This document shows positions 39,452-45,495 of a DNA stretch of 64,000 nt, piece by piece. Origin of the DNA: Thiospirochaeta perfilievii (GTDB lineage Bacteria > Spirochaetota > Spirochaetia > DSM-2461). Positions within the stretch are counted from its first letter, which is position 1, and the number at the start of each line of letters is the position of its first letter. The stretch is taken from positions 2,170,001 to 2,234,000 of the forward strand of contig NZ_CP035807.1 of the NCBI RefSeq assembly GCF_008329945.1. Direction: 5' to 3'. The position numbers were made by a program, and so were the translations under genes. The notes beneath the pieces are model-generated. The model did not search any database, was not told the origin of the DNA, and saw only the letters and a program-made list of their open reading frames with translations.

Positions 39452-40402
39452 TTGAAAGTTACCAGTCTTATTTTCATCTCTATTTTGGTCTTCTCATGTC
39501 AGACATATACTAAAGAGAGTCAAGAGGTACTGGATTCTAGGGATGAACTTAGAGGATTAAGATCCTACGTTTACGAAGATTGGATAGAAGCTGATCAACT
39601 TTTTGATAGGTACTTTGATGAATATACTAAGGATCTTCCTAATAGCAAATACTTTCCTGTATGGTTTAATTCCATAGGGGAGAAGATGAATGGAGTGATA
39701 TTCACTCCACAAGTTCAAACAAAGGGTACTGTCCTTTTTATACATGGTTATGCTGGTAATAGTAGAGGATTGCGATATATAGGAAATAGATTATTAAAAG
39801 ATGGATACGTAATTGCAGCTTTAACACTTCCAGGCCACGGCTTAGCTGGTGGAGATAGGGGTGATATAGATAACTTTGATGATTATGCAGTTGTAGTCTC
39901 TGATTTTATTAAAATCTTAACAGACAAGGGATTAAAACCAGATTTTGCGGTTGGTCATAGCACCGGTGGCTCATCTTTAATAATATATAACCAGAAATAT
40001 GGGTGGGAGTTTAAAAAAGTTATTTTAATAGCTCCTTTAATCCATTCTTCATATTGGTATACCTCTAAGATTACAAGGTTTATTACTAGGCCTTTTATAA
40101 AGAAGTTAGATACACGATGGACTGGCCCTTTAGCTGTTAGCACATTTCCTATGCATTGGTTTGATGAACTTACAAAATGGAATAAGAAGTTAGAAAATTA
40201 TAATAAAATGGATGATGAAATTATTGTATTACAAGGGGATAAAGATCGAATTGTAAGTTGGAGATATAATATAAAATTTATAAAAGAGTTATATAATAAG
40301 AGTGAGGTTTTAATTTATAAAGATGGAACCCACACCTTATTCCTTGATGAGGAGTGGGATGGTATAAACGTGATCAATAAGGCTTTTAATTTTTACTACT
40401 AG
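39452..40402 (+). CDS. Alpha/beta-hydrolase lipoprotein (monoacylglycerol-lipase-like)
   Basis: An alpha/beta hydrolase with a lipoprotein signal peptide KVTSLIFISILVFSC (lipobox VFSC). I start at the TTG at 39452, 1 nt after the nudC stop, because the signal peptide begins there; an ATG at 39434 inside nudC would add six residues. The nucleophile elbow is GHSTGGS near residue 165, the oxyanion region is FIHGYAGNSRG, the acidic residue lies in LQGDKDRIVS and the catalytic His in DGTHTLFLD. This set and PGHGLAGGDRG match monoacylglycerol lipase-type hydrolases. The substrate is probably a lipid ester at the cell envelope. The 3' end overlaps the convergent gene by 17 bp. Confidence 0.85.
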   Translation: MKVTSLIFISILVFSCQTYTKESQEVLDSRDELRGLRSYVYEDWIEADQLFDRYFDEYTKDLPNSKYFPVWFNSIGEKMNGVIFTPQVQTKGTVLFIHGYAGNSRGLRYIGNRLLKDGYVIAALTLPGHGLAGGDRGDIDNFDDYAVVVSDFIKILTDKGLKPDFAVGHSTGGSSLIIYNQKYGWEFKKVILIAPLIHSSYWYTSKITRFITRPFIKKLDTRWTGPLAVSTFPMHWFDELTKWNKKLENYNKMDDEIIVLQGDKDRIVSWRYNIKFIKELYNKSEVLIYKDGTHTLFLDEEWDGINVINKAFNFYY

Positions 40403-41423
40403 TGTTGGATAACTCGTTATAGCTCTCTAATAGGTCTTTATAATAAAGCGCTAACTCTGAAGATTTCTTATCAAAGTCATCTAATATTGAGGAGTCCTCA
40501 AGTGTTGTTTGACTCTTGATTCCAACAAGTTCTAAATTAAGATGTTTTAAGCTATTAATGGATGAGGTAATCTTTAATTTCAAAAGCTCCTTATCCTCTT
40601 CTAACTTCTTTATTGTAGTAATATGATTATCGATATCATCTATTAGTCTGTTATACTCCGTAATTAATACTGGTGAGTCAGTGTTCCCTTTTTTGTTTTT
40701 TAACTCTTCCTTATCAAGAATTAAGTCATTAGTTGAACTCTCCTTTAAAAGTTCATCTAAATCCTCTTCTTTTTGAGTTAGTAGTTGTATGGTCTCTACA
40801 TAGCTATCTATTTTAGGTAGAATATCCGAAGCAAAATCCTTAAACTTATGTCTTATCTCAACAATTGTCGATAGGATTGACTCTCTTAGAACTATAGCTC
40901 TTTGGAGTTGACTGTTTGTTAGAATGTCACTTATGTCATTAGGGTCTATATTTATTGGTTCTTCATAACTCTTCCTGTTTGTATAGGAAGCCCAGTGGGA
41001 GGCTACTCCAATACCCATGGCTACGATTGGTATAAAAGACCACATAAAAGCTGTTGATGTTATTATGTTTATTGTTAATAGGTATATGGAAACCGCAATA
41101 TTACTTATTATATGCTGATAAAAGTTGTGTCTTAGTCTATGGGATTTAATAAGCTCTTCTAAATCTTTAGTATCCATGTCTGTTATATTTATAACATCAT
41201 CTAGATTTTTTAAAGCGATAAATCGCTCTCCCCAATGGGAAACCATTCCTATACCCCATCCTCCTGTTACAAATAGAAACCAGGGAAAACTAGGTGAAGT
41301 CATCATATTTAATATAAATATACCAATGTTTACTGCTATGTAAGTTGTGAGATGTGTTCGTAGATTATTATAGGATTTTATCTCTTTGCTTTTTACTTTT
41401 TCTTTATATACTTTTAAATTCAT
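40386..41423 (-). CDS. Protein with two tandem 2TM domains and a coiled-coil tail
   Basis: A 345-residue protein whose first 155 residues hold two copies of the 2TM domain: FPWFLFVTGGWGIGMVSHWGERF and FMWSFIPIVAMGIGVASHWASY share the pattern F-W-x-GxGI-S-HW, each preceded by an amphipathic start with LRTHLTTYIAVN or LRHNFYQHIISN. Residues about 175-340 are charged coiled coil. The 2TM domain usually occurs once, in small proteins or before histidine kinases; duplication is uncommon. The topology suggests four membrane helices with the coiled coil in the cytoplasm. The start ATG has no ribosome site; the promoter suggests a leaderless mRNA. Function is unknown. Confidence 0.8.
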   Translation of the reverse strand: MNLKVYKEKVKSKEIKSYNNLRTHLTTYIAVNIGIFILNMMTSPSFPWFLFVTGGWGIGMVSHWGERFIALKNLDDVINITDMDTKDLEELIKSHRLRHNFYQHIISNIAVSIYLLTINIITSTAFMWSFIPIVAMGIGVASHWASYTNRKSYEEPINIDPNDISDILTNSQLQRAIVLRESILSTIVEIRHKFKDFASDILPKIDSYVETIQLLTQKEEDLDELLKESSTNDLILDKEELKNKKGNTDSPVLITEYNRLIDDIDNHITTIKKLEEDKELLKLKITSSINSLKHLNLELVGIKSQTTLEDSSILDDFDKKSSELALYYKDLLESYNELSNTSSKN

Positions 41424-41429
41424 GATTAA

Positions 41430-41458
41430 ATTCTCTATTCAAATTTGGATATTGTCAA
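41430..41458 (-). promoter_or_regulatory. Promoter of the 2TM gene, predicted leaderless
   Basis: Minus strand perfect TTGACA (41453-41458), 17-nt spacer, GAGAAT (41430-41435), then 6 nt to the ATG ending at 41421. The -10 is imperfect, but the -35 and spacing are ideal. Confidence 0.5.
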
Positions 41459-41495
41459 GTATATTGATTTGATTGGAAGAATAAAAGAAAAAAGT

Positions 41496-41579
41496 TGCGG
41501 ACGACTGGACTTGAACCAGCACGAGCGTAAGCTCACTACCCCCTCAAGGTAGCGTGTCTACCAATTTCACCACGTCCGC
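41496..41579 (-). tRNA. tRNA-Leu (GAG)
   Basis: Class II tRNA on the minus strand, 84 nt. Acceptor GCGGACG pairs with CGTCCGC, the anticodon loop is TTGAGGG with anticodon GAG (complement of 41543-41545), there is a long variable arm with GAGC/GCTC pairing, the T loop is TTCAAGT, and the discriminator is A. CCA is not encoded. A T-rich tract follows the 3' end and may end transcription. Confidence 0.95.
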
Positions 41580-41591
41580 TAACAGAGAGTT

Positions 41592-41621
41592 ATATTAACT
41601 TTTTAGAGGTAATAAAGTCAA
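41592..41621 (-). promoter_or_regulatory. Promoter of tRNA-Leu
   Basis: Minus strand TTGACT (41616-41621), 18-nt spacer, TAATAT (41592-41597), about 12 nt before the tRNA 5' end. It is the same -35/-10 pair as in the other tRNA operon. Confidence 0.65.
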
Positions 41622-41638
41622 TATTCCTATACAAATAT

Positions 41639-41667
41639 TTGACTGATAGTGATTGATGGATTATTAT
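41639..41667 (+). promoter_or_regulatory. Promoter of the candidate small RNA
   Basis: TTGACT (41639-41644), 17-nt spacer, TATTAT (41662-41667), divergent from the tRNA-Leu promoter. The predicted start is near 41674. Confidence 0.55.
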
Positions 41668-41673
41668 TAAAGT

Positions 41674-41779
41674 AGACGGAGAGTTAGTTCTCTAGATAAT
41701 AAATGTGAGAGTTTTCAGACAACATTGAATGCTCAACTGAAAACATTTCTAAAGCCGGCCAGTATAACCGGCTTTTTTT
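41674..41779 (+). ncRNA. Candidate small RNA of about 105 nt, unknown family
   Basis: The stretch between tRNA-Leu and rlmN has no open reading frame of note but contains, in order on the plus strand, a promoter, a small AGAG/CTCT hairpin (41680-41693), a perfect 8-bp stem GTTTTCAG/CTGAAAAC (41711-41718 and 41737-41744) around an 18-nt loop, and a GC-rich terminator with a T run. This is the layout of a free-standing sRNA. It does not match 6S, tmRNA, SRP or RNase P RNA in size or motifs. The neighbour on the right is transcribed toward it, so the terminator is not explained by an upstream gene on the plus strand. Confidence 0.55.
41751..41779 (+). terminator. Strong terminator (small RNA; also serves rlmN side)
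   Basis: AAAGCCGG (41751-41758) pairs with CCGGCTTT (41768-41775) around a 9-nt loop and runs into seven T. It touches the rlmN stop codon, so it may also stop that transcript from the other side, but the long T run is only on the plus strand. Confidence 0.8.
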
Positions 41780-42602
41780 AATTAATAACTCCTAGCTGTC
41801 CACAAGCCCCAGCAATTTCTTGTCCTTTACCATGTCTAATGGTTACTTTTAAGCCTAAGTTATAGAGAAAACTTGAAAACTTCTCCACATTTTCCATTGT
41901 AGGTTCTTGAAAGTTTTTACCTGGAACATAGTTATATGGAATTAAATTTATTATAACATCCAGACCCTCTAGAAAGTCCCTAATCTCTATTGCCTCGTTA
42001 AGGGACTCATTTATACCCTGGAAGTTTATTATTTCGATTATCAACCGTTTATTTGTTTTTTGTTGGTACTGTTTAAGGCTCTCTTTTATTTCGGAGAGTT
42101 TAGGTGTATTGGGCATAAGTTTATATCTTAGATCTTGGTTTGCTGTAATTAAGGAGAAGGCTAATCCTGGGAAAGGAGGGTTTTTTAGAAGTTTGTCCAT
42201 ACCAGTTATTGCACCGCTAGTAGATATTGTAATTCTCCTTAGAAAAATATTGTATGTTTTAGGGTTTGTAAATGTTTTTATCGAAGTTAGAACATTGTCA
42301 ATATTGTGCAGAGGTTCACCCATTCCCATATAAACTATGTTGGTTATATCCCTTTGGAAAACGTCTTTAAGTGCTTCAAACTGCCAAATAATCTCTGAAC
42401 TAGTAAGATTTCTTTTTAGTCCCATAGTTGCAGTTTGGCAAAATTGACAATTTTGAGCACAACCTACCTGACAACTTAAACATGCTGTAACTCTATCTGA
42501 TTGATCGATAAGTAGGACGCTTTCAATAATTGAGTTATCATCTAATTTAATTGCAATTTTTCCTGTATTATCAATTGCTCTAAGGGTTTTTATTACTTTC
42601 AT
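41778..42602 (-). CDS. rlmN: RlmN-family radical SAM rRNA/tRNA methyltransferase, short form
   Basis: RlmN methylates C2 of A2503 in 23S rRNA and A37 in some tRNAs. The radical SAM motif is CQVGCAQNCQFC (CxxxCxxC inside it) followed by TATMGLKRNLTSSEI; the C-terminal catalytic Cys lies in IAGACGQLGV, and the earlier conserved Cys is in TACLSCQVGC. At about 274 residues it lacks the N-terminal helical domain of about 85 residues that contacts the RNA in E. coli RlmN. I start at the ATG ending at 42600; a TTG at 42608 is possible, and neither has a ribosome site. It lies 12 nt after the chemoreceptor stop in the same direction. A second full-length RlmN may exist elsewhere. Confidence 0.85.
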   Translation of the reverse strand: MKVIKTLRAIDNTGKIAIKLDDNSIIESVLLIDQSDRVTACLSCQVGCAQNCQFCQTATMGLKRNLTSSEIIWQFEALKDVFQRDITNIVYMGMGEPLHNIDNVLTSIKTFTNPKTYNIFLRRITISTSGAITGMDKLLKNPPFPGLAFSLITANQDLRYKLMPNTPKLSEIKESLKQYQQKTNKRLIIEIINFQGINESLNEAIEIRDFLEGLDVIINLIPYNYVPGKNFQEPTMENVEKFSSFLYNLGLKVTIRHGKGQEIAGACGQLGVIN

Positions 42603-42614
42603 TGCCAAATATTA

Positions 42615-44820: not shown

Positions 44821-45495
44821 ATGGAAGAAAAATTAATTAATGAATATTTTGATGACTGTTATTTTTCAGATGAAAGCGGATATTTAGAGTCAGAATATGT
44901 TTTTATAAATGGAAATAACCTAGAAAGTAGATTGAATGAAGAGTTAAGTATTGGTGAAACGGGTTTTGGTACAGGGTTAAATCTCCTTGTCTTAGAAGAG
45001 TTCCTCGAAGGGAAATTGGTTGCTGATAAAACTGTTAAATTTACAACTGTTGAGAAGTATATAATAGAAGTTGATGTTGTTAAAAAAGCTTTAAGCAGTC
45101 TAGCAAATATCTCAGAAGAATCACTTAGTCGTCATTTAAACCTGTATGAAGAGATTTGTGCCAACAAAAAAAACGGGTGGAATTCGATATCGGTTGATAG
45201 ATCATGGGGGAGGTTAGAGTTTAACCTGTTTTATGGTGATATTATGGATTGTTTTGAAAATTATCCCATTAAAAATAATTGTTGGTTTTTTGATGGTCAT
45301 AGTCCGGATAAAAACCCAGAAATGTGGAGTGTTGAACTGTTTAAAAATGTTTCTAAACAGACAAAAAAAGGTGGAACATTTGCAACTTTTACAGCTGCTG
45401 GAGTAGTAAAAAGAGCTCTTAGAGATGCAGGGTTTACAGTAAAAAGAAAAAAAGGATTTGGTAGAAAAAGACATATGATTACCGGCTTCTTTTAA
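44821..45495 (+). CDS. mnmD: MnmD, tRNA 5-aminomethyl-2-thiouridine methyltransferase (MnmC N-terminal domain alone)
   Basis: A 224-residue SAM-dependent methyltransferase corresponding to the first domain of MnmC. It shows FDDCYFSDESGYLESEYVFINGN, landmark only, then IGETGFGTGLNLL (SAM site), WFFDGHSPDKNPEMW and TFTAAGVVKRAL with GFGRKRHM at the end, all diagnostic. It makes the final methyl transfer of mnm5s2U at the tRNA wobble base. No FAD domain is attached; stand-alone MnmD occurs in many bacteria. The ATG has no clear ribosome site. Confidence 0.92.
   Translation: MEEKLINEYFDDCYFSDESGYLESEYVFINGNNLESRLNEELSIGETGFGTGLNLLVLEEFLEGKLVADKTVKFTTVEKYIIEVDVVKKALSSLANISEESLSRHLNLYEEICANKKNGWNSISVDRSWGRLEFNLFYGDIMDCFENYPIKNNCWFFDGHSPDKNPEMWSVELFKNVSKQTKKGGTFATFTAAGVVKRALRDAGFTVKRKKGFGRKRHMITGFF

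Follow-up and report, generated by a model that had tools for sequence, protein, structure and literature searches.

A probable small RNA gene of the genus Thiospirochaeta between tRNA-Leu(GAG) and an RlmN-like paralogue

What does the plus strand encode between a tRNA-Leu(GAG) gene and an RlmN-like gene, both on the minus strand, in the genome of Thiospirochaeta perfilievii P, a spirochaete from the environment that metabolises sulfur and has a chromosome of 3,667,739 bp and a plasmid of 32,844 bp (PMC7380536)? A first-pass annotation of the window, by which we mean the whole stretch of 64,000 nucleotides that was analysed, had placed a candidate orphan small RNA there, and a comparison of three genomes of the genus supports that claim. 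We propose that positions 41674-41779 on the plus strand are a real stand-alone small non-coding RNA (sRNA) gene of about 106 nt, a reading to which we give a probability of roughly 0.93. The gene has so far turned up in this genus alone and carries no name yet; it is of an ordinary kind and has a new identity. The comparison comprises three sequences only, those of the window genome (G000) and of the other two Thiospirochaeta genomes examined, G001 and G002, whose assemblies are incomplete (81% and 71%, respectively). The features of the locus are as follows.

41496-41579, minus strand: tRNA-Leu(GAG) gene, at the same place in the relatives' loci L131 and L132
41592-41621, minus strand: predicted tRNA-Leu promoter, TTGACT-18-TAATAT, consensus match 9 of 12, divergent from the sRNA promoter
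41639-41667, plus strand: sRNA promoter, -35 TTGACT at 41639-41644, spacer of 17 nt, -10 TATTAT at 41662-41667
41670-41676, plus strand: start region AAGTAGA, identical in all three genus sequences
41678-41693, plus strand: hairpin 1 (5' hairpin), with a stem kept by covariation and a drifting sequence, absent from the first-pass annotation
41707-41749, plus strand: hairpin 2, GAGA+GTTTTCAG / CTGAAAAC+A+TTTC, 12 of 12 pairs possible in all three sequences
41719-41736, plus strand: loop of hairpin 2, 18 nt, the likely functional site; the three species agree at 15 of its 18 positions
41751-41779, plus strand: intrinsic terminator, stem AAAGCCGG/CCGGCTTT at 41751-41758/41768-41775, loop of 9 nt, T-run 41773-41779
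41778-42608, minus strand: RlmN-like radical-SAM paralogue without N-terminal domain, 276 aa, convergent neighbour of the sRNA

The gap was correctly described as free of a reading frame, in that no frame of at least 60 aa covers 41639-41777 on either strand, and the stop codon of the RlmN-like gene overlaps the end of the terminator T-run. No plus-strand gene lies directly downstream, the next one starting at 44821 beyond two minus-strand genes, which makes a leader, a riboswitch or any other cis-control of a downstream gene unlikely. That gene (44821-45495) encodes an MnmC2-type tRNA methyltransferase domain alone, without the oxidase half, and is an RNA-modification gene near the sRNA locus. 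On the other side of the tRNA, at 40386-41423 on the minus strand, lies a gene whose product has 345 aa and matches the 2TM domain twice; a relative occupies this place in G002 and not in G001.

The promoter-like sequence TTGACT-17-TATTAT is present base for base as first read, and its hexamers and spacing are kept in all three genomes (TTGACG/TATTAT in G001 and TTGACT/TATCAT in G002, each with a spacer of 17). Transcription probably starts within 41672-41676, judging from the distance to the -10 box. A promoter scan of 41000-42500 found 7 sites, compared with 6.1 (sd 2.6) in shuffled sequences, which is the chance level in a single genome. The sRNA promoter and the predicted tRNA-Leu promoter stand back to back with their -35 boxes 17 bp apart, and the -35 block AGTCAATA of the latter is the same in all three genus sequences. 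Within 41592-41667 the two -35 boxes form an inverted repeat, AGTCAA...TTGACT, which is kept in the three species except for one base in G001. Competition between these two promoters is plausible.

The inner stem of hairpin 2, in which GTTTTCAG (41711-41718) pairs with CTGAAAAC (41737-41744), can be read directly from the DNA; the 8-bp stem with an 18-nt loop that was first described is thus confirmed, and four further pairs join 41707-41710 with 41746-41749. The strong terminator, a GC-rich hairpin with seven T, is likewise present in the sequence, with a stem that is invariant across the three species, and a pattern scan of 41000-42500 returned no terminator site because its loop limit was 8 whereas this loop has 9 nt. 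Hairpin 2 and the terminator together (41706-41779) fold better than shuffled sequences (z -4.77; 0 of 200 shuffles equal), as does the whole 106 nt (z -2.92; 4 of 200), while the RNA minus the terminator gives z -0.85 (36 of 200). Read on the minus strand, these 106 nt fold well too (z -3.68; 0 of 200 shuffles equal), which is why folding energy cannot tell the strand. The signal is less marked in the relatives' RNAs (G001 z -2.72, 2 of 200; G002 z -1.71, 10 of 200). For G002 the minimum-energy structure gives hairpin 2 other partners, the G002 centroid having the common form. The evidence from a single genome is weak to moderate and comes mostly from the terminator hairpin.

At the level of sequence, conservation in the two relatives is what lifts the whole element above chance. 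BLAST matched the region in both other genus genomes, at 78% and 74% identity, and the element lies at the same place, from tRNA-Leu(GAG) to the RlmN-like gene, in all three. The outer neighbours change, with another gene to the left of the tRNA in G001 and the chemotaxis gene to the right of the RlmN-like gene missing in G002, so that the trio of tRNA-Leu, sRNA and RlmN-like gene holds together better than its surroundings. Identity varies by block: the hexamers are 83-100% identical (80-100% for the -35, the -10 and the stretch to the start region), the spacer 41-65%, hairpin 1 45-55%, the linker 29-57% and the gap before the -35 box 55-68%. The core of hairpin 2 (41704-41750) reaches 83-91%, compared with 88-96% for the tRNA-Leu and 64-66% for the RlmN-like coding DNA. 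The terminator block scored 56-79%, partly because the alignment inserts 10 gap columns into the window sequence after the T-run; all seven modelled terminator pairs are invariant and a T-rich tail is present in all three sequences.

The pattern of substitutions points to an RNA structure. Aligning the relatives for compensatory changes yields four pairs of hairpin 1 that changed on both sides and one such pair in hairpin 2, which has two more changed on one side. The hairpin 1 stem is longer in G001 and G002 (8 bp), and its length is reached by 26% of shuffles for the window, 2% for G001 and 14% for G002, or jointly by 0.08%; taken alone, the stems of the window and G002 are thus nothing unusual. 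The structure alignment has three sequences, needs one loop gap in G002 and, having been fitted to the structure, is biased in its favour. In it, standard pairs fill 78 of 80 cells and five pairs changed on both sides, a result reached by 12 of 500 shuffles; sliding the pairing partners lowers the pairing to 34-61%. Nine cells are G-U on the plus strand and a single C-A cell would be G-U on the minus strand, which favours the plus strand as the RNA. A covariance model from the window and G001 only (R2), with a structure chosen after all three sequences had been seen, finds the G002 element at 90.4 bits (E 4.5e-15 against three sources, 1.6e-13 against the G002 genome). The comparison shows conserved promoter hexamers, three helices, a plus-strand orientation and a conserved loop. 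The promoter, the stems, most of the loop and the terminator are kept in both relatives, and loss of stems and promoter beside persisting flanks, named at the outset as evidence against an sRNA, was not seen.

Outside the genus the element fades quickly. A covariance model built from all three genus members (R1), whose own scores for them prove nothing, had convincing matches only in those three (E about 1e-21) among 26 family and 394 class genomes; the class search used stricter filters and scored at most 12 candidates per genome, so weak relatives were possibly missed. The R2 model matched 3 of the 26 family genomes. Weaker R1 matches came from eight more family genomes (best E 0.15-0.72) and, within the genus, from L147 and L153. 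Five class matches (E 0.0018-0.0037) and the two best family matches, L136 and L137, were rejected as driven by the terminator or loosely aligned, with the loop in fragments at most, as was the weak own-genome match L146 (E 0.010). Another own-genome match, L151 (E 0.10), has a loop-like stretch inside a reading frame, without a terminator, and was put down to chance. A DNA search of 41 genomes (our own plus 40 relatives) gave a match at E ≤ 10 in 37, none outside the genus better than E 0.0037, and the two best non-genus matches are 35 and 29 bases long. Loci chosen by synteny (16 for tRNA-Leu, 27 for RlmN and 3 of 80 in a further set) produced one match, at E 0.59, which was rejected, and a search near the full-length RlmN copies gave one weak match, at E 0.004, within a coding frame. 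Viral contigs, searched with a 27-letter pattern, and phages gave no match, and a 30-base match at E 0.009 in four Aeromonas plasmid records was taken as chance. The sRNA thus either arose recently or has diverged so far that its relatives beyond the genus escape detection.

From these features we infer transcription, function and target pairing of the sRNA. It would be transcribed from its own sigma-70-type promoter, facing away from the predicted tRNA-Leu promoter, and transcription would end at its own intrinsic terminator. The 5' hairpin, of which only the pairing is conserved, probably protects or spaces the RNA; a variable linker would lead to the conserved hairpin 2, exposing the nearly invariant 18-nt loop, and then to the terminator hairpin. 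An inner UUGA/UCAA pairing is predicted in the loops of the window and G001 and cannot fully form in G002, which suggests that the loop is probably open, in line with the first description of it as free for base pairing, and its conservation fits a role as the likely functional site. With its own promoter, a 5' hairpin, a single conserved open loop and a terminator, the sRNA is built like a regulator that acts in trans by pairing its loop with mRNA. Most likely it works in this way, on a single mRNA or on several and independently of classical Hfq, and we lean slightly towards such pairing as its main mode of action.

The target search bears on this as follows. Loop-like and complementary sites with up to three mismatches were counted against a reversed pattern and gave no clear excess (62/54 vs 72/56 in G000, 56/43 vs 48/42 in G001 and 43/41 vs 37/45 in G002), and when the loop was set against 87 start regions of the window, 19 of 100 shuffled loops did at least as well as its best duplex. 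Thirteen loop sites with up to two mismatches occur in the examined loci, where gene names were assigned by eye. The best (one mismatch) is in a flagellin-like gene in the sense direction, three are antisense and lie 371, 401 and 1202 bases behind the start of long frames, a GAPDH-like one among them, and two fall on or close to the beginning of short frames that run against a long one and are probably not genes. By eye, locus L181 (1-972 and 1279-2127) has a transposase-like frame beside two flagellin-like genes. One and the same 18-base string, which differs from the loop by three mismatches, occurs five times in the genome, once within this transposase-like frame, and the five are perhaps copies of one mobile element.

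A search for Hfq (PF17209) found it in none of the three genus genomes, two of which are incomplete, with control rings in 5 of 14, and a divergent Hfq could be missed. Excerpts of a study of Borrelia burgdorferi describe its Hfq as unique (PMC5216591), so a divergent Hfq is possible in this genus as well. With no Hfq detected in the genus, the sRNA could reveal how RNA regulation proceeds in such spirochaetes when Hfq is lacking; its limits are well defined, its loop is a clear candidate for the functional site, and the free-living host species is available from a culture collection (DSM 19205).

An sRNA that is real could also act by binding or titrating a protein, following the logic of 6S or CsrB with the loop as the protein site, and we regard this as unlikely. 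The conserved stem and loop of hairpin 2, the lack of a target signal and the failure to find Hfq would all suit such an RNA, but 6S RNA is encoded elsewhere in the genome and no particular protein is indicated. GGA is the CsrA-type motif, and by eye its position is not shared by the three RNAs; a CsrA sponge was dropped on finding no shared GGA.

It is rather improbable that the element controls only its neighbours, with plus-strand transcription interfering with the tRNA-Leu promoter or the hairpins ending and stabilising the RlmN-like mRNA. Such control would make sense of the two conserved -35 boxes at 17 bp from each other and of a terminator hairpin right behind the RlmN-like stop codon on a minus strand that folds well (z -3.68). 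Yet the terminator stem read on the minus strand has only 2-3 T behind it, the G-U pairs fit the plus strand, and the nearly invariant 18-nt loop is left unexplained.

The convergent neighbour of the sRNA deserves attention in its own right. It had been named rlmN, and the assignment to RlmN-like proteins stands; the gene is, however, not the housekeeping rlmN and encodes a paralogue that lacks the N-terminal domain and falls below the TIGR00048 cut-off. The three genus copies score 250, 240.9 and 223.8 bits against a cut-off of 290, and their matches begin at profile position 69-71 of 355 (69 for the window copy). A second, full-length RlmN above the cut-off is present in T. perfilievii and G001, and none was seen in the 71% complete G002. 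The RlmN-like protein keeps the cysteines of the CxxxCxxC motif, a further cysteine ahead of this motif and that of the C-terminal ACG motif, which we take to be the cysteines with roles in RlmN, so the enzyme may be active. Matches at E ≤ 1e-60 occur in 144 of 394 class genomes, with frames shorter than 300 aa (277, 276 and 276) only in the three genus members; the other RlmN frames among the matches listed at this threshold have 332 aa or more. At E ≤ 1e-40 two other genomes, G043 and G052, have frames of 300 and 319 aa, and shortened RlmN relatives may exist further away from the genus. No match at 1e-60 was found in other sampled family members, so the paralogue may stem from outside the family.

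In the sampled genomes the sRNA and so shortened an RlmN-like gene, counting close matches, are both confined to the genus and adjacent. This co-occurrence is suggestive, and one genus would amount to one evolutionary event that shared descent explains equally well. That the two form a functional pair, the sRNA providing recognition in trans, as a guide or scaffold, for an enzyme without the N-terminal domain of its close relatives, or serving as a dedicated substrate, with the loop as docking or modification site, is very doubtful; an RlmN-type methylase without its N-terminal domain as constant neighbour does make a testable pair with the sRNA.

A very short coding or dual-function gene, with a tiny peptide starting in the loop (TTG/TTG/ATG), is highly improbable. 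All three sequences do have one frame that runs without a stop across hairpin 2, FQTT(L/L/M)xAQL(K/K/E)(T/A/A)FL, but, as judged by eye, it has no ribosome-binding site at the usual distance and no common upstream start, its lengths differ (18, 12 and 22 aa), and most changes hit the first position of a codon (5, compared with 1 at the second and 2 at the third). A chance arrangement of promoter-like and terminator-like sequence with no function, for which one could cite the chance-level promoter in one genome and the z of -0.85 without the terminator, is close to negligible, as the block-wise conservation, the finding of the third species by a two-species model and the compensatory changes speak strongly against it.

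How does this sRNA gene compare with known systems? The Rfam covariance search matched no family at the element, in the window or in the relatives' loci: only four tRNAs reach the cut-off in the window, and only tRNAs do so in four further loci, relatives' loci included. The first-pass annotation had set the element apart from 6S, SRP, tmRNA and RNase P RNAs, and this was borne out, for tmRNA and RNase P RNA by the lack of an Rfam match at this locus alone; ARAGORN found no tmRNA within the window. Like the element, 6S RNA (RF00013) is a small non-coding RNA with its own gene, but the 6S RNA of this genome has 181 nt and lies elsewhere (G000:C1:3014896-3015076), with no RF00013 match at the element. 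The small bacterial SRP RNA (RF00169) is of similar size, about 100 nt, but its gene too is elsewhere in the genome (G000:C1:1926844-1926939) and RF00169 has no match at the element; an SRP-type hairpin was considered and dropped. Each of these two RNAs was found in two of the three genus genomes. The best sub-threshold Rfam match, Phe_leader (RF01859), shares a hairpin followed by a GC-rich terminator, but its 19.8 bits (E 0.34) fall well short of the gathering score, 55, and the element has no plus-strand gene directly downstream. A CRISPR repeat was dropped, the locus having a single copy.

A search of titles and abstract openings, with few subscription journals covered, found no published work on regulatory RNAs of this genus; in a related field, excerpts of the sRNA catalogue of Borrelia burgdorferi include an intergenic class (PMC5216591). 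The element differs from intergenic trans-acting sRNAs in matching no Rfam family and in coming from a genus in which no Hfq was found. The intergenic trans-acting sRNAs of bacteria are a general class of RNAs that have their own promoter and intrinsic terminator, and the element resembles this class in size, in promoter and terminator, in a stem-loop that presents an unpaired conserved stretch and in its place between genes.
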